64,000 nucleotides of DNA from positions 318,819-382,818 of the forward strand of contig ML976669.1 of the NCBI GenBank assembly GCA_010015655.1, read 5' to 3'. This DNA comes from Bimuria novae-zelandiae CBS 107.79. Taxonomy: Eukaryota; Ascomycota; Dothideomycetes; Pleosporales; Didymosphaeriaceae. Positions 17,092 to 41,127 of this stretch are shown piece after piece. The notes under the pieces were generated by a model, which worked only from the letters and a program-made list of their open reading frames with translations, was not told the origin of the DNA and ran no database searches. The translations under genes and the position numbers were made by a program. Position 1 is the stretch's first letter, and the number at the start of each line of letters is the position of its first letter.

Positions 17092-17754
17092 TTCAGGTAA
17101 GTGCTTGTTGATAACATGTACCGTACGAGTAGGTATTCGCTTATTGCCAAAGCAAACCTGCAGACCTCGGCATGTCCTCGCGACGTACCATTGATTTCCT
17201 TTCAAGCGAAAAAACCACAACCTCAGTTGAGGTGTATTTGCTAAGAACGATTCTTATTGAGATTACTCACCCTCTTCGAAGAGCGCCGTGTATTGAGGGT
17301 GGTGTCTTCGGCACGTTTCCCCACATATCCGAGGGGAGAGGCAGACCCGCCATATCGCACTTGTGCCCCACCACCATGTAATGTAATCGTAACATAGTGG
17401 GGTAATGTAGCCACGTGACTGACGTCAGAGGTGGTATACGTGAAAGATACTACTCAGGTGCACGGACTAGGGACTCAACAAAAACTCTCCGCCACTCTCT
17501 TTCTCTCTGAAAAGACTCCTCACTACACACTCTCTTATCTGCAGATAGCAATACAGTTTGTTTGTCCTCATATGCCTGCCTGCCTACAGGTAAGCTTACT
17601 GCTCCCTACCAGCAATTAATCCTTAAACGACCCGCTTTCTTAGGACTACATCTTTCTACTTGCGCTTTATTTTGGGCCACCCTTGTAGCGCCATAGCTTT
17701 GTTCCAATCGTTGGACAGTCGCGCATTAAGAATTTCCTTATTGCTTCCTTGGAG
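17092..17754. promoter_or_regulatory. Upstream region of the carboxylesterase gene
   Basis: 663 bp between the transposon and the carboxylesterase ATG. It holds one full cluster motif (17319-17326) and two more core sequences: CCCCAC at 17366-17371 and GTGGGG at 17397-17402. Without the 2.7-kb transposon this would be a roughly 0.8-kb divergent promoter shared with the metallo-hydrolase gene. No gene of its own is supported. Confidence 0.55.
17319..17326 (-). promoter_or_regulatory. CCCCACAT cluster motif, carboxylesterase promoter
   Basis: Exact 8-mer, about 430 bp upstream of the carboxylesterase ATG. It is one of ten intergenic copies found between 17.3 and 41.2 kb; see the finding on the shared motif. 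Confidence 0.5.
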
Positions 17755-19579
17755 ATGACCACCATTTTCAAACACGCAGATTTGGGGAAAATCAAGGGAA
17801 ACATCAAGGATGGCGTCGCTCAGTTCCTGGGGCTCAAGTATGCTTCTTTGCAGAATCGGTTCGCAGCGCCTTCACTAGTGACAAACTATGGTTCTGGGAC
17901 TGTTGACGCCTCCAAATTCGGGTATTTTTCCTTCTCGAATTATCAGTTCCTTGCTCATATCCGACAGTCCTCCTCCAGTCTCACCCATTGGCGCCATCGA
18001 CAATGAGTTCGGTTTCATTCAGAAGTCCTTGCCATTGCCACCAGACCTCCCCTATCATTCGGATATCGAAAGCTTGAACTTGAACATCACTATTCCTATG
18101 AACAAGGAGGGTAGCATCGATGTGACCGCAAGTCTCCCTGTGTACGTCTTTGTGCATGGCGGCGGTTTCGCTGTAGGCTCAAGCTGGTACCCGCATTACG
18201 ACCCTGCGCCACTCGTGAAGCTTTCAGTCGAGAAGGGACAACCGGCCATTGGTATCACAATCAAGTACGTAAGTCACCCGACATGTTTTGTACCCGCTGA
18301 CCTTTTGCAGCTACCGATTAGGCGTACCAGGGTTTCTGACCTCGAAAGAGTTGCGAAGCGCAGGCTATAAGGCCAACAATGGCTTCCACGACGTACGGAT
18401 CGCACTTGAATGGATTCGGAAATTCGTCGGCGGCTTCGGTGGAAATCCAGACGAAATCACCGCTTCCGGTGAAAGTGCCGGAGCATGTAAATACCCTTTG
18501 CGGAAGTCAGTGGCAATTGCTGATAAAGACAGTTGCCGTCATCATGTTACTGACGTCAAAAGAGCCGCTCATGAAGCGGTGTCTGATTACCGGAGGCGCG
18601 GTCCTGTTATTCAAGCCATTGCCCGAGGCGGTAACCGAAGCTACTTATCAGAAAGTCATCGACGCCCTTGGGCTCGCAGAAAAGACTCCTGAAGAACGTA
18701 TTAAAGCGTTACTTTCTGTGCCTGTGGACGATCTCTGGCAAAAGATTCCCCCCGGAACGCTCCTTACTCCTTCAATCGACAACGAAACCGTGCCTGGCAT
18801 AGCGACTTTTCCCATCGTCTCGTCTCAATTTGATGACCCAGCATTTCCGATGCCTGGGCGTAAATGGTGTTCAGCAGTGATGATAGGCGATTCCAAGCTC
18901 GACGTTAGTTTCGAAAATTATGTTCTAGTGCAAATTACTGATATTGAAACAGTGCAGTATCCTCTACTATCTCGGTATGAGCGAAATGCTCCCAAACATC
19001 GCACCGAAGTTCATTGAATCGGTCAAGAAGACCTTAGCAGCACACCCTGAGGTAGCTTTGAATTTGCTATCATTCTACAACATCGCTCCATCAACCGACG
19101 ACGATGAAGCGCTTCTCTCCATCCTCCGGTTCGGTTCGGAAATCAGCTTCTACGCACCTTCCCTTGCCTTCGCAAAAGGCTGGCCGAAGACGAAAGAGAA
19201 CAAGTTTTTCATTTACCACTTCAACGAAGGTATCCCTTGGGAGGGGAAGTTTAAAGGCGAAGCAGGGCACATCCTCGACGTGGCGTATCTCTTCCAAAAC
19301 TACAATGAGCATATGAACGAGGAGCAGAAAAAGGTTGCGCGTGCGTACGGTGAAGACTTCATCGAGTTCGTCAACGGAAACGATCCATGGCCACCCGTTG
19401 AAGGTGAATTGGTAGGCGCGAGAGTCTACGGACCAAGTAGCGAAGGCGTCACGACGAAGTATGTCGCGTCAGGAAACCCCGCAGAGGTCGGCAGAGAAGA
19501 CAGAGTGCTCAAGTTGGGTGAGCAGATCGGCTTCGATTTGGTTTTGGATGTATTCCAGAATTTCATGTTTGGTAAATAG
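17755..19579 (+). CDS. Carboxylesterase/lipase, type B (alpha/beta hydrolase)
   Basis: Exons 17755-17921, 17968-18264, 18311-18486, 18533-18903 and 18953-19579 join in frame to 545 aa, a normal length for the family. Catalytic features: oxyanion-hole motif 'VFVHGGGFAVGS', nucleophile elbow 'GESAGA' (Ser), and the C-terminal His in 'KGEAGHILDVAY'. There is no signal peptide, so unlike many type-B esterases it is probably intracellular, consistent with a catabolic role. Type-B carboxylesterases hydrolyse esters of varied acids; the substrate is not predictable. It would supply a free acid or phenol to the downstream ring-cleavage enzymes (inference). The next gene starts 341 bp downstream on the same strand. 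Confidence 0.88.
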
Positions 19580-19819
19580 TCAGGCGTGGTCAAGAGTTAT
19601 GAAATCAAGCTGTTCGGCACAAATTGAATTCTCTTTTACGCGTTCTGCCGCGGCTTCACGAAGTTTGCGAAGCTCCAAAGTTGAGTCTGGCGCGGTATTC
19701 GGAACATCGCGGTGATTCATTGCCGCTTCCAGTTTTGACACGCTAGCCTGATCGGCTCAAGTGAGGAGTGGAGGCGAAGTGGGCGCGTTCCCCGCTTGCA
19801 ACACCTTTCATAGGCGCGC

Positions 19820-19827
19820 ATGTGGGG
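19820..19827 (+). promoter_or_regulatory. ATGTGGGG cluster motif, SDR promoter
   Basis: Exact 8-mer whose end lies 93 bp upstream of the SDR ATG, within the 341-bp gap after the carboxylesterase. Confidence 0.55.
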
Positions 19828-19920
19828 TGCGGGGACAGGTAAACAAAACGATATGAAATTGGTATCGCAGAAGTATGGATAATATTCTTGCAGTTTTCGC
19901 ATCGCCAAGTGTTTGGTACC

Positions 19921-20961
19921 ATGGTTTACGTGCAATTTAACTCCGATCTCCTGAGCACCCTCAACGGGAAGGCTGTGGTACTTACAGGAGGAGCAACCGG
20001 AATTGGAAGATCAGCCGTGATCCAATTCGTTAGTAGGACAACACCCACCTCTTAACTTTATTCTTTTGAGACACTGTACTAATCCATCTTCAGATGCAGG
20101 ATGCAAGGTCGTATTCGGCGACGTCAACGATGTGGCTGCTCGCGAGCTAGAATCCTCGCTCGGCGAATCAGTGCGCTTCCAACACTGCGACACTTCGTCG
20201 TACCAGGCTCAGCTTGGCTTGTTTGCTTTAGCGGAGAGCACTTATGGCCGGGTCGACATTGTAGTAGCTAACGCAGGAGTGGCGAACCATAAAGACATCT
20301 TCGACCCAAGCTCAGACATCCTTGTCGAGCCTAGTATGATGGAGGTCGACATCAATCTCAAGGGTTCTATATTCACGGCGAGAATCGGTATGCATTACTT
20401 AAGAAAAACTGGAGGTGGCGATCTTGTACTCGTTAGCTCCATCGCTGGTTTCAAGGAGTGTGGAGGCCTTGCGCCGTACACGGCGAGTAAACATGGTGTG
20501 TTGGGTCTCATGAGAGGGCTGCATATCGTTGCTATTCCGGAGAATATCAGGATCAACGTGATATGTCCCTGGATGACTAGTAAGTCCTCCAATTGCTACT
20601 ATTACAAAGCTGTTCTAATGGGCGCATAGAGACGAGACTTGTCAAAGGTATTGAAGCCGGCTGGAGGGAACTTGGTCTTCCAGAAAATGAACCCGAAGAT
20701 GTTGCAAGAAGCATCGTGCTCTGCGCTTCTGCTAATCGAAGTAAAGACGGCAAGACTCACCCAGGAGCAAGGATGCCGTTTGCGGGAAAGATCCTATGGA
20801 TTGCGGGTGGTGAATCCTACGAGATAGAAGACGCGATACAAGAGCTTGAGCCGAAATGGCTTGGTGAAGAGAACAGCAGAGTGCTTGCTAAAGGTCAGGA
20901 GTTTCTTGCAAGTCAAGGCACAAGCTGGGATGCAGATAAGCTCGGACAAAAGACGCCATGA
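19921..20961 (+). CDS. Short-chain dehydrogenase/reductase (classical SDR)
   Basis: Exons 19921-20032, 20094-20579 and 20630-20961 give 309 aa. The Rossmann motif 'TGGATGIG' binds NAD(P); 'ANAG' stabilises the central sheet; the catalytic residues are Ser in 'LVSSIAG' and Tyr/Lys in 'YTASKHG'. It resembles 15-hydroxyprostaglandin-dehydrogenase-like fungal SDRs, which oxidise secondary alcohols or reduce ketones with unknown natural substrates. The first donor is taken as GTAGGA at 20033 rather than the nearer GTTAGT, because only this keeps the frame into the second exon. Cytosolic by appearance. It lies tail-to-tail with the NmrA-like gene (57 bp between stops). Confidence 0.87.
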
Positions 20962-21018
20962 ATGGGTGCACAGATACAATATACCAAACTTCTTTATCAA
21001 CGCCTGATGCATATGCAC

Positions 21019-22018
21019 TTACTTGCTGCCCCCTTCCACAGCATCCAAAGTCAAATAAGCAGGCGCCGGCTTGTCTTCAGTAATATCACCCCACGCGCTC
21101 CAATGCTTCCCAACCAACTTCTCGTTCTCCACTTCATCCGCAATCGCGATCGCCATATCCGCCACGCTAATCCCCGTCAACCTTCCCTCGAAGATATTAT
21201 CACCCCGCTGTTCACCAACCAGTACCATATCATCAACGCTAACTTCGTACTTCCCCGTACACACACCAGGTCTATACAAAGCTGATGGCGACACAAACGA
21301 CCACTTGAACGACGTGTTGCCGTCGAAAAACATATACGCCGTCCGTCCCGCCTTGATAAAGTCCGTCGCGCGGTCCTTAGCCTTGATGCTTGCTTCGTAC
21401 TCCGCAATGGTCTTTTGCTGCTCAGTCGTGGCACGACCTTTGCGCTCTCCGAATCGCGCATCGCGGTAGGCGCGGAGGGCGGTGCCCATTATACCCAGGC
21501 GCTCTTCCATGTATACAATGTGTGCTTCTGAAGTCGCAATGGCGCGCCTGTATGCCATAAAGAAGTCTGGATGGTCGACGCAGCTCTCTGGTGTACCGGG
21601 CACGTGGAGAGACCCTGCGCCGCCAACGAAGAGGAAGTATTTCACGTCTGACTGTTTGACTGCTAGGATGATTTTTCGAACCGTTTCGAGGAAAGGCACT
21701 ATTCTCGTTAGACAACATCTTTGTATGATGGAATTTTTGGCACTTACTGTACAGTAGTGCATCTGCACCTGCTGTATGCGGTCCGTACTCTGAGACAAGT
21801 ACATCGATTCCTGAGAAGTGCTTTGCGAGTTCGGAAATGGACGCTGAATCGATGTCGACAGACCGTGGGAAGTAGCGCCCGTGCGAACCGAGCTTTTCGG
21901 GATGACGAGAGAGGCCGATTACGGTGTGGCCGCGGTTTAAAAGCTCGACGCAGAGATAGGAGCCTCCAAATCCTGCCGGGCCGATTACCCCTACCTTTAG
22001 AGGTGAAGCTGGTGGCAT
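21019..22018 (-). CDS. NmrA-like NAD(P)-binding reductase
   Basis: Exons 22018-21748 and 21698-21019 join to 316 aa. The N-terminal dinucleotide-binding motif 'VGVIGPAGFGGSYL' (GxxGxxG) and the following 'LLNRGHTVIGLSRHPEK' are typical of atypical SDRs of the NmrA/isoflavone-reductase type. The catalytic Tyr/Lys pair of classical SDRs is not evident, so it may be a redox sensor or a reductase of unusual type. It shares a 454-bp divergent promoter, holding one cluster motif, with the hydroxyisobutyrate-dehydrogenase-like gene. Confidence 0.82.
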
Positions 22019-22472
22019 GGTTCTGCTCTTTGTACTGGTGCCGAGTCAGCCCAGGTCGTAAATACTATCATAGTTACTGTGAAATACAAGCATGCCTACC
22101 GTCCCGAGGTCGGATTCATAGAATAATAGTTATCTACAAAGAAGGACGACGATGCGGTATGCTTTCACAAGGGCGTGTACCGGGAGTGGTATTTCTCACT
22201 TCCGAGTAACTTTCAAAATTTAATAGCACGAAATTTGTGACCTTGCGGTGCTCCAAAGTGTTACATAGCACTTGTCCGTTTAGAGTTGGCGTTTGGATGA
22301 ATATTGGGGAGCATATGGAGAATGAGGGGAACAATGTGGGGCGAAGCGCGAAGGCGCGAAGGCCAGATTATGCAGGTACTATCTACTTTGCACGAAGTAC
22401 TACCTCGCCTACTGTAAACAATACTCTTCGACTGTTGCTTGGAATCATTCTCGCAGTTTTCAAAGCTAGAGA
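22019..22472. promoter_or_regulatory. Divergent promoter between the NmrA-like and hydroxyacid-dehydrogenase genes
   Basis: 454 bp between two outward-facing start codons. It contains one exact cluster motif. No coding sequence is supported inside. Confidence 0.6.
22334..22341 (+). promoter_or_regulatory. ATGTGGGG cluster motif in the divergent promoter
   Basis: Exact 8-mer, 131 bp upstream of the dehydrogenase ATG and 315 bp from the NmrA-like ATG. Confidence 0.55.
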
Positions 22473-23582
22473 ATGGCGGACAATTATGCGTTCATCGGCA
22501 GGTTCATTCTACACCATCCGATATTCTGACACTAACTCTCCGCAGGCCTCGGAGCCATGGGCTACGCCATGGCCTCAAACATCAGAAGGAAAATGGATGC
22601 ATCGGCAACTTTGTACATCAATGATATCAACGCTTCCGTTTGTACTCGCTTCAAAGACGAATATAGCTCTTTTGGGCGCATAAAGATCGTTTCCACCGCA
22701 CGCGAGGCATCTGAGAATGCGAAAGTAGTCATATCAATTGTACCTGGAGCACAAGATGTCAAAAAGGTCTACCTAGATGAGAAAGACGGTGTAATTTCTG
22801 CCAAGAAAGACGAAGAGCGGGTACTGTGCGAATGCAGTACGATCGACGTGAAGAGTACACGAGAAGTGGGCGAAAAGCTCAAGGCAGAGGGAATGGGGAC
22901 CTATGTGGATACTCCCGTCTCAGTAAGCTCCTCTTATCTTGTTCATAAGTCTCACTCACTGATCTTCCACCAGGGCGGCGTCCCGGCAGCGGAACAGGGC
23001 ACTCTTGCTATGCTCATCGGCCACCCCAAGCTCTCTACCTCAAACCCCATACACACACGCATCGACGCCACACTCTCTATGATGGGCTCCCCCGAGAAGT
23101 TCTTCTACCTCAACTCCCTCGGCGCTGGCCTCACTGCCAAGATCTCAAACAACTATCTCTCGGGCACGATCCTCCTCGCGACTGCAGAAGCCCTTGCCAT
23201 CGGCGTCGCGCAAGGCCTCGATCCGAAGCAACTGTACTCTGTGATCCGCGCTTCAACCGGCCAGTCTTGGATGTGCGACCATGTCATGCCAATACCGAAT
23301 GTAACCGACATCTGGGTGCCGAGCAACAGCGGGTACAAGCCGGGCTTTAAGACGCAGATGATGCTTAAAGACCTAGGACTCGGTATTGAGGGCGGGAAGC
23401 AGGTTGGAATTAACCCTTCGATGGCGGAGGCAGCGATGGAGGTCTGGGAGAGCGCGAGTAAGGACGATAGGTGCATCGATAGGGACGGGAGTAGCATATA
23501 TTTGCACATCGGAGGGAAGTTGCCGGAGGGATATGAAGACAAGGGCAAAAAGAAGGATGACGGATCGTGGGAGTTTGCGTAG
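22473..23582 (+). CDS. 3-Hydroxyisobutyrate dehydrogenase-like / 6-phosphogluconate dehydrogenase family oxidoreductase
   Basis: Exons 22473-22497, 22546-22922 and 22974-23582 give 336 aa. The NAD(P)-binding loop 'FIGLGAMGYAMASN' is formed only if the first intron is spliced with a GC donor (GCAGGT at 22498) and an AG acceptor. The substrate-binding signature 'DTPVSGGVPAAEQG' forms across the second intron, and the catalytic Lys region is 'LTAKISNNYLSG'. The family oxidises beta-hydroxyacids to semialdehydes or reduces the reverse. The N-terminus shows no clear targeting signal. Beside ring-cleavage genes it may handle a hydroxyacid intermediate (inference). The first exon encodes only eight complete codons and is easily missed. 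Confidence 0.85.
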
Positions 23583-23703: not shown

Positions 23704-25404
23704 CTAGATCTCCATCACCTTCAAGTCGTCGGCCACCTTGAATGGCGCCTCGGTCTTCGCCTTGACCTCGTCGACAGTGACACCCTTTGCGACCTCCTTC
23801 AGTGTGAGTCCATCTATCGGGCTGACGTCGAATACGGCGAGATCGGTGATGATGGTCGATACGCACTTCTGGCCCGTGAGCGGGAATGTGCATTGCTTAA
23901 GAATCTTGGGGTTGCCCTTTTTGTCGGTGTGCTCCATGGTAATGACGACCTTGGTTTGCGAGGGGTTGGCAACAAGATCCATGGCGCCGCCGATGCCCTT
24001 GACCTTACCGGGAAGCATGAAGTTGGCAAGATCTGTAACAAGTCAGCTGCAACGTTCGCGAACCGTGTATACAATCAGGTGCTTGCCTCCGTAAGTGTTG
24101 ACCTGCATAGCTCCAAGCATAGCGACGTCAATCCTGCCTGATCGGATCATGCCGAACGACTCATGGCTACCAAAGGTCGAAGCGCCCTTATTTAGAGTAA
24201 CGGTCTCCTTTCCAGCGTTGATGAGGTCTGGGTCCTCCTCGCCAGGCTTAGGGTATTTGCCCATGCCGAGGATGCCGTTCTCCGATTCCAAGATGATCTC
24301 GACGCCCTCAGGGAGGAAGGCCGGGGCAGCAAGTGGCATGCCTATTCCGAGGTTGACATACATGCCATCTTTGAGCTCCTGCGCGGCTCGCTTGATGATG
24401 CGCTCGCGTTTTTGCGATGCTTCCGAGGAGCCTGTCCGCATGTTAGCGATTGACCCGGTTGTTCGGGTGGTGATGCCTACCTTCGAGAATGGCCCTCTTT
24501 TGCTCTTCAGGATCCTTATAGTGCACCAACCGCTCAATCTTCTTCTCTTCAGTGCTCTTGATGACCCTCTTCACGTAGATGCCTTGCATATGTACTTCTT
24601 CTGGTGCGATGACTCCATCCTCGACAATCTCATCAGCCTCGACGATAGTCATCTTCGCGTTCTTTCCCATTGCTTCGTTGAAATTGTTCTGGGCTTTACG
24701 GAAGGTACAGTTGCCGAGACGATCTGCTTTGGCGACCTTGACGAAGGCATAGTCGCCATAGATGGCTTCTTCCATCACGTATGCTTTGCCGTTGAATTCG
24801 CGGGTTTCTTTAGGAGGCGCCATTTTGGCGATCGTGCCATCGGTGTTGTACTGGACGGGAAGCTCGCCAGTTTGGACTGTACCAGTACGTCAGCAACGGC
24901 AACAAAACGTGGTTTTGAACGCAAGATGGAATGCGACTTACCTATTGTTCCATAAGCCGCTGGTGTGTAGAAAGCCGGTACACCTGCTGCACCTGCCGCG
25001 CATTTCTCCGCGATCGTGCCCTGGGGCGTCAACTCCAGCGCCAACTCGCCCTTCAGATACATTTGCTCAAAGGTCTTGTTGTCTCCAATATAACTTGCAA
25101 TCATCTTCCCAACCTGTTTCGTGTCCAACCACTGGCCGAGCCCCACTCCGGGCATACCCGCATTGTTGCTCACCACTGTGAAGTTCTTCAGATCTTTGCG
25201 GTCGCGCACGGCATTGATGAGTGTGTTTGGCACGCCCGAAAACCCGAACCCACCGACAAGGACTGTTGTATCTGACTTCATATCCTTGATGGCTTCTTGT
25301 GCAGAAGGGTAGATTTTGTTGATCGCGGCCCGGGTAGCTGTGCTGGAGTAGAACCGGATGGCAGGCGCGCTGCGGCGAGCCGCGAAAAGGAATGTTCGTT
25401 GCAT
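23704..25404 (-). CDS. Succinyl-CoA:3-oxoacid CoA-transferase (fused A and B domains), mitochondrial
   Basis: Exons 25404-24942, 24876-24481, 24431-24087 and 24032-23704 join to 510 aa, the usual length of fused class-I CoA-transferases. The N-terminus is a mitochondrial presequence rich in Arg/Ser/Ala ('[14 protein letters not shown]'). The A domain has '[14 protein letters not shown]'; the B domain has the catalytic Glu in '[10 protein letters not shown]' and 'GGAMDLV'. The third intron uses a GC donor (GCAAGC at 24086), needed to give '[11 protein letters not shown]'. The family moves CoA from succinyl-CoA to 3-oxoacids. Generic SCOT acts on acetoacetate; next to maleylacetate reductase and a thiolase, 3-oxoadipate is the likelier acceptor here (inference). 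A one-mismatch cluster motif lies 244 bp upstream. Confidence 0.92.
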
Positions 25405-26000
25405 TGTGAAATGTGTTGCTGCACCAATCCGTATTCACTGGCAATGGTCCCCCAGAAGTTCGTTCAGAGCTCCCTAAACCAGCCTCTAGGTAATGCAAAG
25501 CTCTAGGAATGCCGTACACGAATGTAGAATCCTATCGCAAGCTACAGAGGCCCTCGCTACAGCTCCACGCAGCTCCGCAATGCTCAATGCCTGAGGAAAA
25601 TGTGGGAATGTGGGATGTAAAGGCCGCGAATGCAGAACGATTGCGTTCCCCACACGACTTTTGAGAGGTTGCATATCGCCACTAACCGCAATTAGGCGTA
25701 CCGAATCACCTGCCGTGCCGGCACTGGTGGAGCTCGGGTTCGCCAAGGGCTCCACAAAACGTGTCGGAAGAAGACTTATCCACTGATTTGGCGGTGGAAA
25801 AGCGTTTTCGATTTCGCTTCAAACCCTTTCTGGACCGGAAAGGTTGTGCTACGGATACATTTTCCAGCCTTTTCGAAGCCAACGCTTAGGAAAATACAGA
25901 AACTAGCGTCGCGATCTCCGCCAGGATGTCGACCGCTCCGAGGTCACCCACGGAGAAATGCACCGCTACCGATCCGGTAAAGAACGCACCGCCATCCAGC
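25405..26000. promoter_or_regulatory. Promoter region of the CoA-transferase gene
   Basis: 596 bp between the CoA-transferase start and the stop of maleylacetate reductase. It has CCCCACAC at 25648-25655 (one mismatch to the cluster motif) and two nearby ATGTGGGA-like sequences around 25600-25617. No gene is supported. Confidence 0.45.
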
Positions 26001-27397
26001 CTAGTACAAGTCGTGCACAATCTTCTTCACTGAAATTTGGGTCAGCTAGAATTCTTCGGCCAAGGATAGATTAACTCACAGTTGGCGAAGTCCTTGTGCT
26101 CTTTGCTATGTAGTGCACGCGATGCAATGGCTTCTTCCTCTGCATCTCCGGTCGGAACGTTGTACTGGCTGTGGTCAGCAGCATGGACATTGCAAAGATG
26201 GCCTCACTTACAGCGGTCAGTGTGGTCTTGTGTCCTAGCCCCTCAACCAATTTGGATATAGCATCTGCCACGATATGCGAGTCCTTCTCGTCGTTCCCAG
26301 TGCCCTGCTTGCCTATGTAGGGAATGATCCTCGCAATCTGTTTCGCTTCTTCTGGATTGCTGGCCTTGAAGCGCACTGTCGGTGCTAGACTCAAGCAGCT
26401 AGTGATGCCATGCGGTATGGAGTAGGTTGCGCCAATTGCGTGGCCAATGCTGTGGCTGAGACCCACACCGCCGGTGTAGAGGAAGGGAAACAGCGAAGCG
26501 TAGCAAGCGAGGAAAAGCTTCGTGCGGACGTCCGCGTCTTCTGGGTTTGCTTTCGACTGAGGAAGGTAGGTGAACAAATCCTTGATAGCCTCTAAGCACA
26601 TTCGCTTGGTTGGAATCTCGGACGCGAGTGGATGGTACATGAGCTCGACAGCGTGATCTAATGAGCGAATCTACAGTGCCGTTAGTCATAGAACAGTACC
26701 AACACTCGAGTTCCTTACCCCAGTACTTGTCCAGAGGTTCAATGGAGTGTGCAAAGCAATTTCGCCATCGTATATCACAGCTTTGGGAACGAGCTCTGGG
26801 TTGCTGACGGCGATCTTATGCTTTTCCTCGGTGGTGAATCCAGCGTTCTGTGTCGTCTCTGCAACGCTCAAAGTGGTCGGGACAGCGATACTAGGGACCC
26901 ATTTGCTGGTCTCCTCATGGATGTTATACGCGATGGCCTTTGCCGAGTCGATCGGTGAACCGCCTCCTACTGATATCAAGACGTCGCAACCAGATTTCGC
27001 CATGAGCGCAGTCGCTTCGCGGATGTCGCCAATAGGCCTGCTACACTCAGCCACATTGACATATGCAACTGCCTGAGATTACTTACGCATGTTGACCAAT
27101 CTTGCTAAATGTTCCCCCGTGCACTGAACCTAAACTCTGTTCGATATCCTTGATCACTGGTGTCTTTTCATAGAGAGAGCGGCCGGTGATGATGAATGCT
27201 TTTGAACCGCCGAGCTCCGACACAACGTCTGAGAGCTGTTTGCTGGTTCCTGAATGGCTTTCGTAAGTCAAGAGTACACGTACAATGCTCTGAAACTTAC
27301 CTCTACCGTAGATGAGGAGCTTGACAGGCGAAGCTCGATACACGCCCTTGAGCGATGAGTCGATACCTCCATTCTGGTACTTGCTTGGCAAAGTCAT
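26001..27397 (-). CDS. Maleylacetate reductase / iron-containing alcohol dehydrogenase
   Basis: Exons 27397-27301, 27249-27087, 27040-26719, 26670-26212, 26164-26080 and 26029-26001 give 384 aa. Signatures: nucleotide-binding 'VLISVGGGSPIDSAKAIA'; 'TGIRSLDHAVE' formed across an intron, as in maleylacetate reductases; and the His-rich stretch 'LSHSIGHAIGATYSIPHG', where classic iron alcohol dehydrogenases place metal ligands. Maleylacetate reductase reduces maleylacetate to 3-oxoadipate with NAD(P)H, a step after ring cleavage of hydroxyquinol-type aromatics. The two small C-terminal exons follow from GTAAGT and GTGAGT donors and end in '...HDLY'. It is divergent from the thiolase gene over 262 bp, suggesting joint control. 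Confidence 0.88.
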
Positions 27398-27659
27398 TTC
27401 GTCCTTTCTTTCCTATGTGCTTCACTGTATTGAGCAGAATCGAGGAGCTCTTCTTCGCCTTTACGACATCCAAAGGTCCGATCTGCTGTGATTCGTCATG
27501 GTGGGGTAGCTCTTCCTTTGCCCGCCCCACGTTCTTGCGCCCCGCCACGTCTGTATTGCGGCTGCGGAACGGCAATTCCACCATCTCCGGTTAAACCGCT
27601 TTTCTGCTGTTCGCATTCGATATGCCTGGTGACTCTGCGATCGAAGCTCGAATGCGAAA
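27398..27659. promoter_or_regulatory. Bidirectional promoter, maleylacetate reductase / thiolase
   Basis: 262 bp between the two ATGs. It carries two copies of the motif core (GTGGGG at 27501-27506 and CCCCAC at 27525-27530) placed near the middle, in opposite orientation and 18 bp apart. The flanking AT of the full motif is absent in both. Confidence 0.55.
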
Positions 27660-28980: not shown

Positions 28981-29330
28981 CCGGTGGAGTGCCGTAGGTC
29001 TAACGCGCATCAGCGTGTCGATATCGATCGGGATGTCTTTTGAGCGATGGTTGTAGCAGTGAAAGCATAATTTGTTGCATAGTTGATTCCTCATGCACAA
29101 CACGAAAATGACGCGACCCACAAAACTACACGTGGGCGCTAACCTCATGGGTCACGCTAAAGTGCCGACCCGAGCGCAAATGAACCCCACACTCCTCCGC
29201 CGCACTCCTCCACCGCCCATGGTCCCACGTCTTGATACACTCTGCCTTTAGTGCTAGCGTTCTCGTTCTTTCCTTGTCATGCTTTCCATTTTTCGTTTTG
29301 TCTGTCACTCAGCGTATCCTAAGTGACATC
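28981..29330. promoter_or_regulatory. Promoter region of the PcaB-like gene
   Basis: 350 bp. It contains CCCCACAC at 29185-29192, 138 bp from the ATG, one mismatch from the full cluster motif. A pyrimidine-rich leader precedes the start. Confidence 0.4.
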
Positions 29331-31037: not shown

Positions 31038-31045
31038 CCCCACAT
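31038..31045 (-). promoter_or_regulatory. CCCCACAT cluster motif, dioxygenase promoter
   Basis: Exact 8-mer, 127 bp upstream of the ATG of the homogentisate-dioxygenase-like gene, in the 417-bp gap after the PcaB-like gene. Confidence 0.55.
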
Positions 31046-31172: not shown

Positions 31173-32967
31173 ATGGAGTTCAAAGAACGTCAGCTTGTCA
31201 CCGACCCCCAGAAGGCCTTTCACTTCACCGATCTACAGAGGCTGAAGCCTACGCGAGCAAACGACCCTTATGAGTACCAAGCAGGATGGGGCAACCGCCA
31301 TCAGTCGGAGGTCATCCCCGGAACCTTGCCTGTAGCGCAGAATAACCCACAAGAGGTTCGCTTTGGTCTTTACACTGAAGGCATCACATATTCAGCTTTT
31401 ACTGCTCCACGGAATTCAAACTTCAGCACATACATGTACCGCTGTAGACCAGCGGCTGCCCATAGTATGTCGAATGCGAGCTTCCACGTCTTCCTGCGCT
31501 AATGAAGTATAGAGGGTTATGTTCCTATTGAGACGAAATCGAACATCCAAAACTGCTTTCTATCTATCAACCCCAAGGTTGAGGCTCTACCAGAACAGGC
31601 GGAATGGGCGCCGTATCCGCTTCCCAAAGACGAAGACAAGATCGACTTTGTGAATGGACTACATACCTTGGCTGGAAGCGGTGACCCTAATATCAGGGAA
31701 GGCATCGCCCTCTACGTGTATATGATTAACTCCAGCATGGAGCGACGGGCGTTTTGCAACACCGATGGCGACTTCCTCATCTGCGCGCAGCTCGGCAGTC
31801 TCGATATCGTGACTGAAATGGGCAAGATCTTCCTTCAACCCGGCGAGATTTGTGTTATTCAGAGAGGCATCCGATTCTGTCTGAACTTAGCCCCAGATAC
31901 CAAAGTTGCTCGTGGCTACATCACCGAGGTGTGGGGTTCCATGTGGGAGCTCCCGGATCTTGGTCCGCTAGGTGGACATGGGTTGGCGAACCCACGCGAC
32001 TTCTTGTACCCTGTTGCTGCGATCGACGAGGAACTCCACGTTGATTGGCAGATTGTGAACAAGACCAACGGGCAGCTCGTTGCCATTCAGCAGGACCACA
32101 GCCCATTCGATCTTGTCGCGTGGCACGGCAACGTCGTCCCTTACAAGTATGATCTCACCAAGTTCTCTTCGCAAAACAGCACCTCGATTGACCACACCGA
32201 TCCGTCAATCTTCTGTGTGCTCACTGCGAAGTCTCGCGACCCGGTCACACCACTAGCGGACTTCCTTTGGTTTGGACCGCGATGGGATGTGGCGACGAAC
32301 ACTTTCAGGTTGCCTTACTTCCATCGTAACTCTGCCTCGGAATTTCTCGCCTGTTTATACGGCCAGGGTCTTGGAAGAAGCGATGAGTTTCTTCCTGGTG
32401 GTGGCAGCTTTGAGGGATGCCATACGCCTCACGGTGGTTTCCATGAAGGCTACCAGCATGGCATGAGGATTCACGAGAGCGTTCCAGAAAAGACCCTGAC
32501 AGGTATGACGGATATCATGTCTTCCCGGATGCCTTTGCTGACATATACCAGACCAACTCACCATCATGGTTGAGTCGAGCCGCTTGTTCCTCTGGACCGA
32601 ATACGCCCGCACTGGTTGCGGCACAATGCACGCTCATGGTACTGATTACAAGGTCTGGGATGCACTACCCGTAAGTCTCTTCTCCACATCAAAGACCAAC
32701 TTCTGAATTCCACCACAGGATCGGTTTTCCGCCAACAACAAAGCCAAAGAGTTGCTCGCTCGCATCAAGGAAGACAAGATCGCGGAGAAGAAGCGGTTGG
32801 CACCTTACTATATCGGCGGATTCGCTCATGGTGCTAATGCTAGCGACACCGAAGGCGTACATTCCAAGGAACTGGAGCCATATCTCAAGGATAGCAAAGC
32901 CAACGGTATCAGGCACGACTCAATGAGCAGCGGGCATGCATTGGAAGGCGCTGTGGAGGTAGCTTAA
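31173..32967 (+). CDS. Homogentisate 1,2-dioxygenase family ring-cleavage enzyme with C-terminal extension
   Basis: Exons 31173-31464, 31513-32502, 32552-32670 and 32719-32967 give 549 aa, about 100 longer than usual homogentisate dioxygenases. Family features: 'YEYQAGWGNRHQSE' at the N-terminus, 'TYSAFTAPRNSNFSTYMY', and the non-haem iron site 'YFHRNSASEF' (His, Glu) followed by 'TPHGGFHEG' (His). The core ends near residue 467; the remaining roughly 80 residues form a charged tail I do not recognise. Homogentisate dioxygenase opens the ring of homogentisate to maleylacetoacetate. The usual partners (maleylacetoacetate isomerase, fumarylacetoacetase) are absent here, while maleylacetate/3-oxoadipate enzymes are present, so a different dihydroxy- or trihydroxy-aromatic is likely (inference). 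No targeting signal is obvious. Confidence 0.88.
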
Positions 32968-33105: not shown

Positions 33106-33126
33106 CCCCACATGCAGGATGTGGGG
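33106..33126. promoter_or_regulatory. Perfect inverted repeat of the cluster motif
   Basis: CCCCACAT (33106-33113) and ATGTGGGG (33119-33126) form an exact 8-bp inverted repeat with a 5-bp spacer, 81 bp upstream of the CaiB/BaiF gene start. This is the only palindromic arrangement of the motif seen in the window and looks like a site for two bound proteins. Confidence 0.6.
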
Positions 33127-33207
33127 CCAAAAGTGCGAACAGCGAGAGACTCTTTGATATACATAACGCTCCGGACGCCGACAATGATGGATACATAGAA
33201 CGAAATC

Positions 33208-34839
33208 ATGCTTTCAAGGTCGTGTAAGAGACTTGCTGTATCCAGTAGGGGCTGGACCTTGGCGCGCGGACATCCCGCCTCCAATCGCTGGATATGGAGG
33301 CGTGGGAATGCGACAGCGAGCTCAGTGGACAAGAAAACCATCGAGAAGCTACCATTGGCTGGCATACGGGTGCTAGACATGACTAGGGTGCTCGCCGGGG
33401 TATGTCCATTCCCGCTTGGGAAGGTAAACTGTATAGTGACACACGACAGCCTTATTGTACGCAGATACTCGCAGACCTTGGGTATGATCTAAGTTTCAAG
33501 TTGTCTTATGTTGTGCTGATGTTGAAATAGGGCAGAAGTTATTAAGATCGAGCACCCAACGCGCGGAGACGACACACGATCATGGGGACCACCTGATGCA
33601 CCTTACACCGACGGTGTTGAGCGCCAATTCCCCGGTGAAAGCGCGTATTATCTCTCTGTAAGCTCTAGTGCATCTCACTTGCAAACAACTGCACCAACTC
33701 TGACACTGCGACAGGTAAATCGCAACAAGAAGTCTCTCGGCTTATCCTTCAACAATCCCTCCGGGATATCGATTCTCCACTCCCTCGTTCAAAAATGTGA
33801 CGTCCTTGTAGAAAACTATCTACCTGGCTCTCTCGCCAAATATAAGCTCGACTACGCTACCGTCTCACAAATTAATCCCTCGCTGGTCTACGCTTCTGTG
33901 ACCGGATACGGGCAAACAGGACCTTATAGCAACCGCGCAGGTTACGATGTCATGGTCGAAGCCGAGATGGGACTCATGCACATCACCGGGGAGCGAGACG
34001 GACCACCCGTGAAGGTCGGAGTGGCAGTCACTGATATATCGACGGGTATGTACACGGCGATCGGTGTGTTAGCGGCGTTGTATGCAAGGAAAGAGACTGG
34101 TCTTGGGCAGTGGATCGATGCGAGCTTGAGCGATTGCCAGGTCGCGGGGCTGGCAAACATCGCGAGTAGTGCGCTGATTAGTGGGAAGAAGGATAGCGGG
34201 AGATGGGGGACTGCTCATGGTATGTCAAACTTTGTATTTCTAGGACTGCATGGTTACGATGCTAATTTGTATACAGCATCAGTGGTACCGTATCGCGCAT
34301 ACAAGACCAAGGACACCAACATCGCTGTGGGTGGATGCAATGACAAGCTCTACGGTATTCTCTGCGACAAGATTGGCAAGCCGGAGTGGAAGACAGATTC
34401 GCGCTTCGTCACCAATGCGCTACGTGTCAAGAATAGAGACACACTTGATCGCATCATCGAAGATGTGCTCAAGACGAAGACGACGAAAGAGTGGTTAGAT
34501 ATTTTTGAGGGAAGCGGTATGCCCTACGGTGCTGTCAACGACATTCAAGGGACCATCAACCATGAGCACGGTATGTTCATTTTCCACCTTCGAAGCTATT
34601 GAAGAATGGCTAACGTTGCGATTACAGTTCTCGCTAGAAACATGATCGAGGAGGTAGACCACCCTGGCGTTGGACCGATCAAACTCGTCAATCATCCAGT
34701 CAAGTACTCAAGAGCAGAGCCGAAGATCAGGACGCCGCCTCCGATGTTGGGCGAACATACAAATGAGGTGTTGAAGGAGCTTCTCGACTTCACCGAAGAT
34801 GATATCCAAGATCTCAAGGTCAAGAAGACAATTGCTTAG
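33208..34839 (+). CDS. CaiB/BaiF family (class III) CoA-transferase, mitochondrial
   Basis: Exons 33208-33399, 33450-33481, 33531-33657, 33715-34219, 34277-34570 and 34628-34839 give 453 aa. The 32-nt second exon encodes 'PYCTQILADLG' together with its neighbours and completes the conserved N-terminal 'LDMTRVLAG...AEVIKIEHP' region. The catalytic Asp of the family fits 'ASLSDCQVAGLANIA'. The N-terminus ('MLSRSCKRLAVSSRGWTLAR') is a clear mitochondrial-type presequence. Family members move CoA between carboxylic acids; the mitochondrial eukaryotic ones (SUGCT-like) use succinate, glutarate or hydroxymethylglutarate. It is structurally unrelated to the class-I CoA-transferase at 23.7-25.4 kb, implying a second acid is activated in the same pathway. 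Confidence 0.89.
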
Positions 34840-35104: not shown

Positions 35105-35112
35105 CCCCACAT
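35105..35112 (-). promoter_or_regulatory. CCCCACAT cluster motif, carrier promoter (distal)
   Basis: Exact 8-mer, about 306 bp upstream of the carrier ATG. Confidence 0.5.
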
Positions 35113-35164
35113 CGTTGTGGTGCCCACCCCTACGCGTCTGCCAAACTCGCTAGCCCCGCACCCG

Positions 35165-35172
35165 CCCCACAT
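35165..35172 (-). promoter_or_regulatory. CCCCACAT cluster motif, carrier promoter (proximal)
   Basis: Exact 8-mer, about 246 bp upstream of the carrier ATG and 60 bp from the distal copy in the same orientation. Confidence 0.5.
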
Positions 35173-35418
35173 CCTCCCCAAAGCAGCACCCCTGCAGCAC
35201 CACCACTATCAGACATACCGGGAGAAAGGGCATACAATATGGATGCGCATGCATGTAGAATACCTATCGCGGCGATGACAAGCGCAGGGTGGGGTAGGTT
35301 GTAACGGAAGTGGTGCCCTGCGCGAGGCGTGGGCTGGCAAGCTCTGACGCCGATTTTTTGAGGACTACCTATATGGACCTTGGAAGTTGCTTTGCAACAT
35401 TATTTTTCCATAGGTGAT

Positions 35419-36520
35419 ATGGCGTCGAAGGTATCGCAGAACGTTGACGCTGTGAGGTCGGAGAAAGCTGCTGTGCTGCCTTTTAGGTATCAGTTTGCTG
35501 CTGGGGCGGTTGCAGGGACCTCGGAGGTAAGAAAGAGTGCCGCGCGAGTGGTGTAGGCGGTGCTGATAATTTTAGATCCTGGTGATGTGAGAGAAAAGTC
35601 GCTACTTGAAGCTTGTGAAGTGCTAAGAATGTAGAAAGGTACCCTCTTGATGTGGTCAAGACGCGGATTCAATTGCAGCATGGCGTAGCAAAAGATGGCC
35701 AAGGGTATACTGGCGTGCTGGACTGCTTCAGGAAGATCATAAAGAACGAGGGCGCGACGAGACTGTACCGTGGGATCACAGCGCCGATATTGATGGAGGT
35801 CCCTAAGAGGTTCGTTGTCATCCATTGAACTGTTCGACCAGGGAAGTGGGCTGATCCAATAACAGAGCTATCAAGTTCTCTGCCAACGACTCATTTGGTC
35901 CTTTCTACCAGCGCTTGTTCCAAGTCCCAGCTCTGACGCAGCCCCTCGCCGTGCTCACGGGTGCAAGTGCCGGCGCGGTTGAAAGCCTCGTTGTAGTTCC
36001 CTTCGAGCTACTCAAGATTCGTCTGCAGGACAAGACCTCTGCATCGCGATACAACGGTCTCTTCGACTGTCTCACTAAAGTCGTGAGACAAGAAGGACCT
36101 CTCGCGCTCTACAATGGCTTCGAAGCTACACTCTGGCGTCACATTGTGTGGAACGCTGGGTACTTTGGATGTATCTTTCAAGTGAGGGCGCAGCTACCCG
36201 AGCCATCGAAGTCGGCGAACCCAAAAGCGCAGAAGACGGTCAATGAATTGGTGGCAGGCTTTGTGGGCGGTATTGTGGGCACTACGTTTAATACGCCACT
36301 CGATGTGGTCAAGAGTCGGATACAAAGCGTTGCCAAAGTGCAGGGCGTGAGAGGAAAGTATCAATGGGCATGGTCGAGCTTAGGGATAGTGGCAAGAGAA
36401 GAAGGTTTGAGGGCATTGTATAAGGGATATGTAGCAAAAATATTGAGGTTTGGGCCTGGCGGGGGTGTGCTGCTGGTTGTATATTCAGCAGTTATAGATA
36501 TGTTTGGGAAGGTGGTGTAA
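35419..36520 (+). CDS. Mitochondrial 2-oxodicarboxylate carrier (SLC25, Odc1/2-like)
   Basis: Exons 35419-35526, 35576-35586 (an 11-nt microexon), 35639-35809 and 35866-36520 give 314 aa. Three mitochondrial-carrier repeats are present with their PxD/ExxK/R signatures: 'YPLDVVKTR', 'VPFELLKIR' and 'TPLDVVKSR'. The microexon supplies 'ILV' and most of a Met codon, giving 'SEILVMYPLDVV', the sequence expected for this subfamily; skipping it leaves a different four-residue join. The carrier exchanges C5-C7 oxodicarboxylates such as 2-oxoadipate across the inner membrane. In this cluster it may bring a ring-cleavage product such as 3-oxoadipate into mitochondria, where three cluster enzymes appear to go (inference). 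Confidence 0.9.
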
Positions 36521-37604
36521 AGGTTTGTAGGACTCGAATATGAAGCCCCAGTAACCTCTCTAGTCCTAACGACGACGAAGGCGTAGCGCAATGGCCGCCC
36601 GAAACCATCCCTTGTGAGGATCGAAGATGGACATGCCTACTGTAGAAGCACAATCCCTGTGGGCTTATCAATATGCGTTTCAGGTCGCACGGCGTCGCTT
36701 CTCGGATCTTGGAACTGTATGTAACGGTTTGTTGAGAACCGGGTAAAGCAGCACAGTGAGGTGGCCAGCCCGTATATGCACCTATGAGGCTATTGGCCAA
36801 AGCACCGAGATATGGCCTATAAACCAACGTACATCGAATAGATAATCACTATACCACATATCTATGCGAAGCTTGGCCGGCAGGCGATGTGACTCAGATC
36901 CGAATTTAGAGGGCGCGTGAACCATAGGTTTAACTCTCGTTCCTTAATCAAAGCGATCATCCGTCAATGATACGAGTTAGATCGTCTATTCGTCCCTTCC
37001 TGGATCGATTCTCGAAGGATTCGAGAACTGCGTGACCAGAAGAGACAGGCCAGGGTTGATGCCCCACTACTGCAAGCCTTACCAGGGTCCCCACATGCAC
37101 GGGAGGGAGTCCGAAGATATGGAATCAATGAACGCCTACCTACCCATCAGCTGCGTGACGATGGTTAGCTGCTCGTGGGCTTGCCCAAAAGATCAAGGCA
37201 AACGATGAGGCTGTTGTTTGCGGCACGTCGAAGGCGACTGTCACCGTCACAATAGTGTGCGTGCGACAATCGTTTCACGTCATGCAGAGAACGTAGCTCC
37301 GCCTCTGGTGCCTACTCCGTTAGAGCTGACAGGCGCTTCAAATGAAGCAGTGAGACTGCAGATGATATGCGCCAGCGAGTAGATGAAGGGCGAATTTGGA
37401 GGGAAGGCGCATCCCGGTCTTATATTGCTCCTAGGCGAGTCATGGGTAGCTCTTCCCCCGCAACTCAGGATGCCAACCGAGTCGTCGCTCCAGACTTGTC
37501 GACCGGCACTTCGCTCATCTATTCACTCTTCAAGACCCTTTCCGATTATACTGGACCGCTGAGGATATCGAAGCTCTTTACGCGGACTGCCCGACACTAC
37601 CCTT
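36521..37604. other. Intergenic/promoter region before the transcription factor
   Basis: 1.08 kb without a supported gene. It carries one exact CCCCACAT and a CCCCAC core near 37061. A short hyphenated palindrome around 37009-37026 (TTCTCGAAGGATTCGAGAA) is also present. No RNA gene is seen. Confidence 0.45.
37089..37096 (-). promoter_or_regulatory. CCCCACAT cluster motif upstream of the transcription factor gene
   Basis: Exact 8-mer, about 508 bp upstream of the transcription-factor ATG; a possible autoregulatory site. Confidence 0.45.
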
Positions 37605-40600
37605 ATGGCCTTGAAGCAATGCAGCCTGTGCGACCGCAAGTTCACGAAGCTTGAGCATGTGAAGCGGCACGAACGATCGCGTAGGCGCCAATTCCTCTCG
37701 ATGCGATGCCTTTTCACGACTAATTTAGGGCATAGATACCAGAGAGCGTCCCTATGAATGTCCGACGTGCAAGAAGCATTTTTCGCGCAGGTAAGACCTA
37801 AAACACCGGTTCCGCGGATTGCCACCAACAACGAATAGCGACGTATTATTTCGCCATTGCAAAGGCCATGCACAGAATGCTCTAAACAGGCTGAGCAATA
37901 GCCAGAAAAATCAGCAGCAGCAGCAGCAGCAACAGCAACAACAGCAACAACAGCAACAGCAACAGGGTGCGCAGAATACGACCAACGACAAGCAGCAGAG
38001 TGAGGCCGGTCCTACATCGGAGCGAACACCACAACTTTCCCATGACCCAAGTTTATCACCTCTTTCAAGACGGAAAAGTTCACAACAAGTCCCGCCGTCT
38101 GGAGACGGGGTGCAAAACCCTCAACAATCGCCGAATTTGCAATTGCAGCGATCTTCCATACAACAGCAGTCGTCCCCCGGCGAAAGCCGGTTAGAAGCGC
38201 TTCTCAACGCGGCGCAGCATCTCGGAACACCCGGCGACGTACCTTGGAGGTCACCCTCTCCAATAGATTTACCCACGGGCAATGAGCGTTTCCTGACGCG
38301 TCAGCCGGACAATATGCCTCCACCTATTGATCCGGCAATTGACATGCTTTCCTTTTCGCCTCAGGACCACGTTTCCAGTCTTGACCAGTGGGCTTTCGAG
38401 CTAGTGCAGAGCAACCATCCACTCCCGAACCGGACACCAGCCGATGCTCTGCAAACTTGGTTGTTCCCTCTTGAAAATGACATTCTGGGTTCCCATCACA
38501 TGGCCATTGACAGTCACTTCGACACCGGCATTTTCCGGAATGGTGGAGATAACCATGCCAGTCCATCCGGTAGCAATGTTTCAATCGCGAGCAGGATACC
38601 CGAAGAGCGCTTTTCGCGAGTGGAAAGCTGTTGGCCCTCAAAATCTCGGACGCCATCCCGCTTGATGCCGACCTTGTGGCAGTGTCTGGTTTCGGCAGAT
38701 TGCTCGAATATCCTTTCAGAAATTCCTTCTGGTGTTATTGAGACCCCGATCAGTGAGCGCGAAAGAAGAAATTCACGATGGGGCCTCGACGAAGAATGCA
38801 GGGACCTGTTACAAGGCGCACTCAATAACGCACCGCAAGCGAACAGTCTCCGTTCTGAGTCATTTGGCGACACCGCATCATCCAACGGTGAGGCTGGAGC
38901 GAGCCCTGGCAACGATGGTGTGCGCTTTCCACCTGCAGAGATTCTAGATATTGCTTTGGAGATGTATTTGTATTACTTCCACCCAACATTGCCTATCATC
39001 CACATTCCTACTTTCTCGGCGAAGAACGCTTCGAGGTCGTTGCTACTTTCCATGTGCCTTATCGGGCTCAGCATCCTCGGCACAGCTGGAGCCGCGAGAT
39101 TCGTATCGCGTACATATCCGGTAAGTCTGGCCAACTTCTCCATACCAGAAGCGGGAGCTAATTAAAGTATCAGGTGGTCTTGCAAATGGTCTCTGCGGAA
39201 CTGCAATCGTTATCGACAAGTAACCACACTCCACAAAAACAGATGCGCATCCTTGCCACAGGACTGCTAGCTCTGAACTTAGCTTCTATAACTGGCGTAA
39301 GCAGGAACGTGGCAAAAGGTGAAACATTTGCTAAGCAGGAGCAGCGCAAGAGTCGAATAGCTCATGCTGGGAATCTCTACAACGACTTAATTATGGTAGG
39401 TGAAGTGCCATTCGTGCGAGCGAGCATTGTTGACAATTAAAGGCGGCACAAAAACACGGGCTGTTCTCTGCGAATGAGAGCGCACCACCAGATTCGTTCT
39501 TGGAAGATATATTGGATATTGACGCTCGATGGAAGGCGTGGTGTCGGGTAGAATGCGCGAAACGGTAAGCAAGAACTCGTCTTGGTTTAGGCCTTGCTAA
39601 AAGTGTCAGGATCGTTTTCGGTCTGCTGGAGGCAGACTGCTGGTACGCGTCGTACCTTTCGGCTTCGCCGCTGATACGACCCGAATCAGTGCAGATACTA
39701 CCACCCTCGGAGTATAACCTGTACCATGCGAATTCTCCCACCAAGTGGTTCAACTTAGTACAGCGCGGGGCTCGGATACATTCGAATCGCATCACACCCT
39801 CCTACCTACCGACACCAGGGCTGAAGCTGGACTCTAGCACCCTTCGGAGTCTGCTTACGCTGTTCCTCCTCCGAGTATACGAAGCCAACGACCGGTTGGC
39901 CAATATTAGTGGACCCCAGAAGCACCTCGAGCCGTGGCGTGTATATTCGGAGGATCCTAGAAGTCGCGAGCTGATACCGCTCCTGGTGAATTTCTCATCG
40001 TCGTCCATTGACGCATTACGAACGGCAGACCTCAACTCCGCAGTGCTCTGGCACTCAACGTGCATGATGCTCGGAGCGAACATGCGCTATTTCGAGCTTG
40101 CCGCTGGACGGGCGGGGTCTGGACCCGCAATAGCTGCTCTGGAAGATATCTCGGTATGGTCACAGACACCATCCGCACGAAGAGCAGTGTTGCACGCCGC
40201 GCACGTCTTCAAACTCCTCTTCGACCGCAAAGTCTCCGATATCGTCAACCCACACAGCTGCGTTGCGCTCTTCCAAGCCGCGCTCGTCCTCGGGTTGTAC
40301 ATCTTCACAGTTCCTCCCACCCCCTGCGGCATCAATGATAACTGCGTCGAGCTGCTTGATCTTATCGACTGGACCCACGTAGGCCAAGTCGGCCTTATTG
40401 ACTCGCCGCACTCCCCTGGGACATCCTTAGGCTTCGGCGACGCGTCTGTGTTGAACTTCATCCGCAGCGGCGGTCCCTTCAGCATAACGGGCATCGCGCT
40501 CGAAGGCGGGTACCTCGCCGCCCGAAGAACACTTCTGCACTGCGCAGACCTGATGGACGGCATGGGGAGGTGGAAGAGTCGAACCTTTTCGCAGATTTTA

Positions 40601-40657
40601 CACATCATGAGCGACGATCTTACGGAAACGGATGCAATGGATAGCGAGGATGCATGA
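37605..40657 (+). CDS. Transcription factor: two C2H2 zinc fingers plus fungal MHR domain; candidate cluster regulator
   Basis: Exons 37605-37680, 37736-37790, 37839-39120, 39174-39395, 39443-39564 and 39610-40657 give 934 aa. Finger 1 is 'CSLCDRKFTKLEHVKRH'; finger 2, assembled across an intron, runs from 'CPTCKKHF' through 'SRSDVLFRH'. A polyQ tract of 18 follows, then a low-complexity linker. From about residue 415 comes the fungal-specific transcription factor domain ('ALEMYLYYFHPTLPIIHIPT'), continuing to the C-terminus. A stretch near 39300-39341 could be an extra 42-nt intron; both readings stay in frame. Two-finger C2H2 proteins with an MHR domain (Adr1-like) bind GC-rich 6-bp sites and control carbon use. 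The helix residues K,E,H,R and R,D,V,R suggest GGG and GTG triplets, i.e. GTGGGG, the core found in most promoters of this cluster. Confidence 0.88.
37912..37965 (+). repeat. CAG/CAA repeat encoding 18 glutamines
   Basis: 18 consecutive Gln codons (pure CAG at first, then mixed CAA/CAG) just after the zinc fingers of the transcription factor. Length variation between strains is likely. Confidence 0.9.
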
Positions 40658-41119
40658 CGGTTACCGTCCTCTTCCCTGGAGTGCTTGTCGATTACCGAAC
40701 TCCGGGACAGGTGGGGAAGGGGATGAATGTACGATTACTGACGTCTGTCTTGCATCGCGAGAGTTTGTATATATGATACTTTGGGTACTCATGGGTTTGG
40801 GGGTTTGCGGAAAAGTAGGAGGCGGTTGTCCTAGGGGTTGTACACTTGTGAGCGTTTCATCAACGCTGTGTGTCGCTGCAAATAAAAGCACTACATTACC
40901 ATTGCGAAACATTCTATAACGCTCCAGCATGATCGTGAAGGTTACAAGGCCAGATAAGACAGTTCTATTTAGTATCGTCTTTGTACTGTGTGTTACCCCG
41001 GAAATACAGTGGTTAAACTATGCGCTTATGCGCTCCACACATGTCTACATTACGCGCCCGATGCAGGGTGGGGAGGTGGTGTTTCTAGTGCTGCGGCTGC
41101 TACCCCAGGCTTCGAGCAT

Positions 41120-41127
41120 ATGTGGGG
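41120..41127 (+). promoter_or_regulatory. ATGTGGGG cluster motif, second P450 promoter
   Basis: Exact 8-mer, 152 bp upstream of the P450 ATG. GTGGGG cores also occur near 40711 and 41071 in the same 622-bp intergenic region. Confidence 0.5.

Follow-up and report, generated by a model that had tools for sequence, protein, structure and literature searches.

According to a 2017 report, specific pathways in fungi are generally under the control of Zn2Cys6 proteins, so that a C2H2 protein dedicated to one pathway was described there as unusual (PMC5746545). Such a regulator is HxnR of Aspergillus nidulans nicotinate catabolism, which is encoded within its own cluster, combines two C2H2 fingers with a PF04082 domain and is described as self-regulated (PMC5746545, PMC8478523). 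Sites of the form GHGGGG are predicted in all HxnR-regulated promoters except that of hxnN, and these sites are described in the 2021 paper as predicted, not experimentally determined (PMC8478523). Here we describe a similarly arranged locus of the ascomycete Bimuria novae-zelandiae CBS 107.79. Within the window, a stretch of 64,000 nucleotides at C14:318819-382818 of the 77.4-Mb, 191-contig assembly (positions without a contig name refer to the window), the hexamer GTGGGG, in its best form the octamer ATGTGGGG, precedes all 13 genes of an apparently catabolic cluster, one of which encodes a C2H2/PF04082 protein. The element is probably the site of this protein, which would act as a pathway-specific activator of the cluster and of its own gene. 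No report of this regulator, of a ATGTGGGG element in fungi or of this cluster was found among the titles listed in searches of the open-licence literature.

The likeness to HxnR lies in the arrangement, with a catabolic cluster, an in-cluster C2H2/PF04082 regulator and predicted sites in the promoters of the targets and of the regulator itself. Compared by the published positions, however, the Pfam finger matches of HxnR (residues 8-32 and 41-63) start 33 residues apart, whereas the fingers of the present protein (residues 6-26 and 34-54) start 28 apart. Furthermore, the enzymes encoded here are different, the element is GTGGGG with a preference for AT in front of it rather than GHGGGG, and HxnR is backed by genetics, the present regulator by sequence analysis. 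The protein does not qualify as an HxnR orthologue by its finger spacing or by the gene content, in which no nicotinate hydroxylase or hxn genes are present among the named enzymes.

The window contains 13 exact copies of ATGTGGGG, compared to a mean of 1.02 and a maximum of 4 in 100 dinucleotide shuffles. Eleven of them fall within the 24.1-kb cluster, and ten of these eleven are intergenic while intergenic DNA makes up 23% of the cluster (P = 3e-6). The other three copies are at 29681, in the coding sequence of a lyase gene, at 23, outside the cluster and the only copy in the interval 1-14500, and at 60994, in the AT-rich right part of the window; without this last one the count equals the 12 copies in non-transposon DNA given by the initial annotation. 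The GTGGGG core is present in all 11 intergenic regions, in 20 copies of mixed orientation where about 2.9 are expected, and the nearest core lies upstream of the ATG by 87-358 bp in 12 genes and by 516 bp in the regulator gene. Gene starts are those of our own models, and these distances ignore 5′ untranslated regions.

Exact copies precede the carboxylesterase-like gene (17319-17326, minus strand, 436 bp before the ATG, with further cores at 17366 on the minus and 17397 on the plus strand) and the short-chain dehydrogenase (SDR) gene (19820-19827, plus, core 99 bp before the ATG). Another occupies the divergent promoter between the NAD(P)-binding protein gene (minus) and the 3-hydroxyisobutyrate-dehydrogenase-like (HIBADH-like) gene (plus; 22334-22341, plus), and one lies 135 bp before the ATG of the homogentisate-1,2-dioxygenase (HGD) family gene (31038-31045, minus). 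The class III CoA-transferase gene is preceded by an inverted pair, CCCCACAT-N5-ATGTGGGG (33106-33126), the sole such pair with a gap of 0-30 bp found in a search of the genome. Two copies stand before the mitochondrial carrier gene (35105-35112 and 35165-35172, both minus, with a further core at 35289, plus), one lies 516 bp before the ATG of the regulator itself (37089-37096, minus, with a further core at 37062, minus), and one precedes the cytochrome P450 gene (41120-41127, plus, core 158 bp before the ATG, with further cores at 41068 and 40711, both plus). The remaining regions carry related forms: GTGTGGGG before the 3-oxoacid CoA-transferase gene of the SCOT type (25648-25655, minus) and 146 bp before the ATG of the lyase gene (29185-29192, minus), and, in the divergent promoter of the iron-containing alcohol dehydrogenase (Fe-ADH) and thiolase genes, a GTGGGG core (27501-27506, plus) and a second core within ACGTGGGG (27525-27532, minus). 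The region before the SCOT-type gene also holds two tandem copies of ATGTGGGA, one-mismatch forms of the motif, at 25600-25615. The initial annotation had listed the same ten exact sites, which are all exact and all intergenic under our gene models, the same four variant sites and the sites upstream of the regulator's own gene. Direct ATGTGGGG pairs occur twice in the genome and not in the cluster; our own reading places one within a short repeat in coding sequence and the other where a reading frame ends, and they were not taken as evidence for a regulon.

The motif is rare in the genome. The assembly contains 620 + 597 = 1217 copies of ATGTGGGG, or one per 63.6 kb, a rate at which 0.38 copies are expected in the cluster as opposed to the 11 observed. 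Twenty 10-kb stretches sampled at round coordinates of contigs 1-5 contain a single copy, and the thirteen of them with a GC content above 45% contain none. Among the first 100 of the 1217 copies, which span C1, C2 and C3 up to 1.28 Mb (about 6.2 Mb), no 24.1-kb stretch has more than 4. In a word search that presupposed no motif, run on the 5498 bp of the 11 intergenic regions, the top 6-mer was GTGGGG, the top 7-mer TGTGGGG and the top 8-mer ATGTGGGG, with Poisson P values of 3.9e-11, 6.6e-11 and 5.1e-14 among 1856, 3834 and 4911 words, respectively. The 20 intergenic copies of GTGGGG compare with 1.9 expected from the non-coding sample, 2.4 from the whole GC-rich sample and 3.0 from simulation; the maximum was 10 copies and 7 regions over 2000 Markov simulations, and 8 copies and 6 regions over 1000 draws of actual GC-rich genome stretches. 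Per 10 kb, GTGGGG occurs 10.4 times in the cluster, 4.1 times in the GC-rich part to its left and not at all in 41291-45700. The right edge of the cluster is not a strong point, since the latter interval is 4.4 kb of mostly coding DNA in which about 2 copies are expected.

An origin of the shared word by chance, base composition or a dispersed repeat is highly improbable. Word sharing as such can occur, given that one of the 1000 genome draws had some 8-mer 10 times and one had some 6-mer in 11 regions. Here, however, the shared word is the one predicted from the fingers of the local regulator (see below), the sequence beyond the 8 bp of the sites is not conserved, and chance is contradicted both by the genome rate and by the ceiling of 4 copies in the listed 6.2 Mb.

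The core is preceded by AT in 10 of its 20 intergenic copies, compared to 1 of 72 in the sampled genome (Fisher P = 2.5e-7), and it is never followed by G (0/20 versus 14/72, P = 0.035). The AT does not belong to a longer AT box, as positions −5 to −3 of these sites are A or T in 12 of 30 cases. The initial annotation had described this flank as constant, which does not hold: because half of the cores lack it, AT is preferred, and what every region has in common is the GTGGGG core. Immediately after finger 2 the regulator carries the segment AQNALNR (encoded within 37839-37900), which is kept in most Pleosporalean relatives and not in those from Aspergillus or Chaetothyriales; in our own count, AQxA(L/M)NR is found in 24 of 27 Pleosporalean-group sequences and in none of 36 others. 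This segment is a candidate reader of the AT flank.

The regulator gene (37605-40657, plus strand) was modeled with six exons in a continuous frame (37605-37680, 37736-37790, 37839-39120, 39168 or 39174-39395, 39443-39564 and 39610-40657). Its product of about 934 amino acids has two N-terminal C2H2 fingers, CSLCDRKFTKLEHVKRHERSH and CPTCKKHFSRSDVLFRHCKGH, and a PF04082 domain, and a CAG/CAA run at 37910-37970 encodes polyglutamine. The helices of fingers 1 and 2 read KLEHVKR and RSDVLFR, giving the contact residues K-E-H-R and R-D-V-R as the initial annotation had stated them. Under the recognition code, in which helix positions 6, 3 and −1 set the bases read by each finger, finger 2 (R, V, R) is predicted to read 5′-GTG and finger 1 (R, H, K) GGG, which together make 5′-GTGGGG. 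Among the first 108 relatives examined, 45 have no readable finger pair; in the other 63, these contact residues are identical without exception, the acidic one at position 2 included, and variation is seen at positions 1 and 4 of finger 1 and at position 5 of finger 2. The closest regulator relatives among the matches listed come from Didymosphaeria (87%) and Paraphaeosphaeria (86%).

The association of the regulator with the cluster enzymes appears to extend to other fungi. For the regulator, the HGD and the lyase, lists of 120 proteins clustered at 90% identity were compared (for the regulator, the best 120 of 123), and a shared contig was inferred from equal listed size. The regulator and the lyase are on equal-sized contigs in all ten species common to both lists, namely Amniculicola, Clohesyomyces, Delitschia (56.6 kb), Aspergillus venezuelensis, A. 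unguis, A. californicus, A. lucknowensis, A. sclerotiicarbonarius, A. terreus and Penicillium lividum. The regulator and the HGD are so placed in four of the eight species listed: Didymosphaeria, Plenodomus, A. multicolor and A. navahoensis. The locus tags are two apart in Didymosphaeria variabile (HGD N0V89_011599, regulator N0V89_011601) and four apart in Plenodomus lingam (IAQ61_004645 and IAQ61_004649). N0V89_011599 is annotated as one protein with HGD and class III CoA-transferase domains, and one listed regulator of Pyrenophora tritici-repentis is fused to a carrier domain. The closest HGD relative among the matches listed is likewise from Didymosphaeria (93%). Among viral contigs, no relative was encoded in any of the 42 stretches that fitted a pattern.

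Several observations weigh against the local protein as the reader of these sites. GTGGGG is one of the eight words of SYGGRG, the consensus of the carbon catabolite repressor CreA, and the genome encodes a CreA/Mig1-type finger pair (RLEHQTR/RSDELTR, C1:862224). The sites could accordingly belong to CreA, mediating glucose repression of the cluster, or, in a weaker form, CreA could act in addition to the local regulator. CreA/Mig1 resembles the local protein in having two fingers and a word set that includes GTGGGG, and differs in its second finger, R-D-E-R. As a class, the SYGGRG words are intergenic beyond their share (51 of 127, P = 9.5e-6). The seven words other than GTGGGG are in mild excess, with 31 copies in 10 of the 11 regions as opposed to 15.0 expected from the non-coding sample (P = 2e-4), 22.4 from the whole GC-rich sample (P = 0.05) and about 16 from simulation, the highest being GTGGAG (9 versus 3.0-4.9 expected) and GCGGGG (6). 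GTGGGG, however, reaches 8-11 times its expectation, whereas these seven together reach 1.4-2.1 times and the reversed words, which served as a composition control, 1.0-1.6 times (21 copies versus 13.4 or 20.6). GCGGGG over the whole cluster is at its expected level (13 versus 13.2). As CreA alone leaves the size of the GTGGGG excess and the AT preference unexplained, it is the less probable main cause and may contribute in addition; this much survives of the CreA alternative raised in the initial annotation, and overall we regard it as unlikely.

Another possibility is that a C2H2 activator encoded elsewhere, akin to Adr1, Msn2 or HxnR, binds the sites and that the local protein has a different role. 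A finger-region search of the genome gave 37 matches, three of which are the regulator's own exons, leaving 34 others; among the finger pairs of the genome, one is Adr1-like (RLEHLKR/RRDLLLR) and two are Msn2-like. Yeast Adr1 has two fingers, the site TTGGRG and the second helix R-D-L-R. The finger pair of the regulator aligns with the ADR1 structure 2adr, and the first helix is of the x-E-H-R type in both; in contrast, the second helix here is R-D-V-R, and the cluster shows no excess of TTGGRG (23 versus 26.9 expected). The site GHGGGG, as predicted for HxnR, also covers GTGGGG (PMC8478523). In ten of the other finger-bearing stretches, one of which showed a single finger and one a stop within a finger, no R-D-V-R second finger was seen, and a regulator that is linked to the cluster and carries the sites before its own gene is the simplest candidate. 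A reader encoded elsewhere appears quite improbable.

Furthermore, three of the 11 regions (before the SCOT-type gene, between the Fe-ADH and thiolase genes and before the lyase gene) are without an exact ATGTGGGG, and the predicted finger target depends on presumed preferences of valine at helix position 3 for T and of lysine at position −1 for G. Ascochyta, Boeremia, Xylogone and Elasticomyces list regulator and HGD relatives on contigs of different size, although the two Elasticomyces entries are perhaps from different isolates. Finally, the best 120 of 123 regulator relatives include no Fusarium protein; since HGD and lyase have neighboring tags in Fusarium, the cluster enzymes may do without the regulator.

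Considering (i) GTGGGG as the top 6-mer of the intergenic regions and (ii) its presence before all 13 genes, the motif sites form a strongly supported regulon signature, as the initial annotation had proposed. Its further proposal, that the local C2H2 protein is the binder, draws on the recognition code, the position in the cluster and the conservation of fingers and linkage, and this protein is the most likely reader of the sites. Because the shared tag before every gene matches its predicted finger target, it is probably the dedicated switch of the cluster. We infer the following course of binding, activation, autoregulation and induction. Finger 2 would contact 5′ GTG and finger 1 3′ GGG, and an element C-terminal to finger 2, which antiparallel binding would place next to the AT, may favor this flank. 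The protein would thereby activate the 13 clustered genes and its own gene, probably in response to an inducer.

The 13 genes were read across 17.2-43.0 kb of the window from open reading frames and from Pfam and NCBIfam scans of exon pieces. Enzyme names stay at the family level because exon pieces were scanned and NCBIfam scores fell below the family cut-offs. On the plus strand are the carboxylesterase-like gene (17755-19579, our own reading from open reading frames, with one C-terminal piece tested and no Pfam hit), the SDR gene (19921-20961, PF00106), the HIBADH-like gene (22473-23582, PF03446 and PF14833), the thiolase gene (27660-28980, PF00108), the lyase gene of the 3-carboxymuconate cycloisomerase/adenylosuccinate lyase superfamily (29331-30755, domain scans), the HGD family gene (31173-32967, 549 amino acids, domain scans and alignment to 1ey2), and the genes for the class III CoA-transferase (33208-34839, PF02515), the mitochondrial carrier (35419-36520, PF00153), the regulator and the cytochrome P450 (41280-42973, PF00067). 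On the minus strand are the genes for the NAD(P)-binding protein (21019-22018, a weak PF13460 match below its cut-off), the SCOT-type transferase (23704-25404, PF01144) and the Fe-ADH (26001-27397, PF00465, low end placed by eye). The alignment to 1ey2 indicates that the HGD apparently retains the iron ligands of the human enzyme, which we take to be His335, Glu341 and His371. Judging from its enzymes, the cluster may serve to hydroxylate and cleave rings and to break down CoA thioesters, and it looks built to degrade ring-shaped compounds.

In the GC profile of the window, the cluster lies in a GC-normal block between AT-rich stretches (GC about 24-44%) at 15000-17000 and 45700-64000, which resemble mutated repeat DNA. 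To its left are a LIM-domain gene (213-1730), an MFS transporter gene (5112-6512) and a second P450 gene (7881-9665).

A canonical homogentisate (tyrosine) cluster, with HGD beside fumarylacetoacetase, was rejected: three matches to PF09298 are found on C63, C53 and C36 and none on C14. Two of them adjoin other HGD genes (C63:430967-432711 and C53:440908-444773), and no ATGTGGGG is present in the 3.3-3.8 kb stretches examined at these two. A fourth HGD-family gene lies away from any detected fumarylacetoacetase on the minus strand of C17 (locus L037, C17:761001-771000), with its start near 768489. It has ATGTGGGG about 150 bp before the likely start and another copy between exons, and may be a trans member of the regulon, for which one gene is only suggestive. 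A copy at a more distant paralogue (L030) was dropped, as it lies inside the reading frame.

A broader scenario, which we consider possible but rather doubtful, is that a separate, non-HxnR family of C2H2 proteins runs a conserved ring-cleavage cluster in Dothideomycetes and Eurotiomycetes through a fixed GTGGGG, that the site was widened in Pleosporales to the 8 bp of ATGTGGGG by an arm after finger 2, and that the regulon may reach the HGD paralogue on C17. For the locus itself, the predicted finger target is exactly the top 6-mer of an unbiased search, so the regulator and the recognition code can be tested together, and the link between regulator and motif gives a handle on the compound that induces the cluster.

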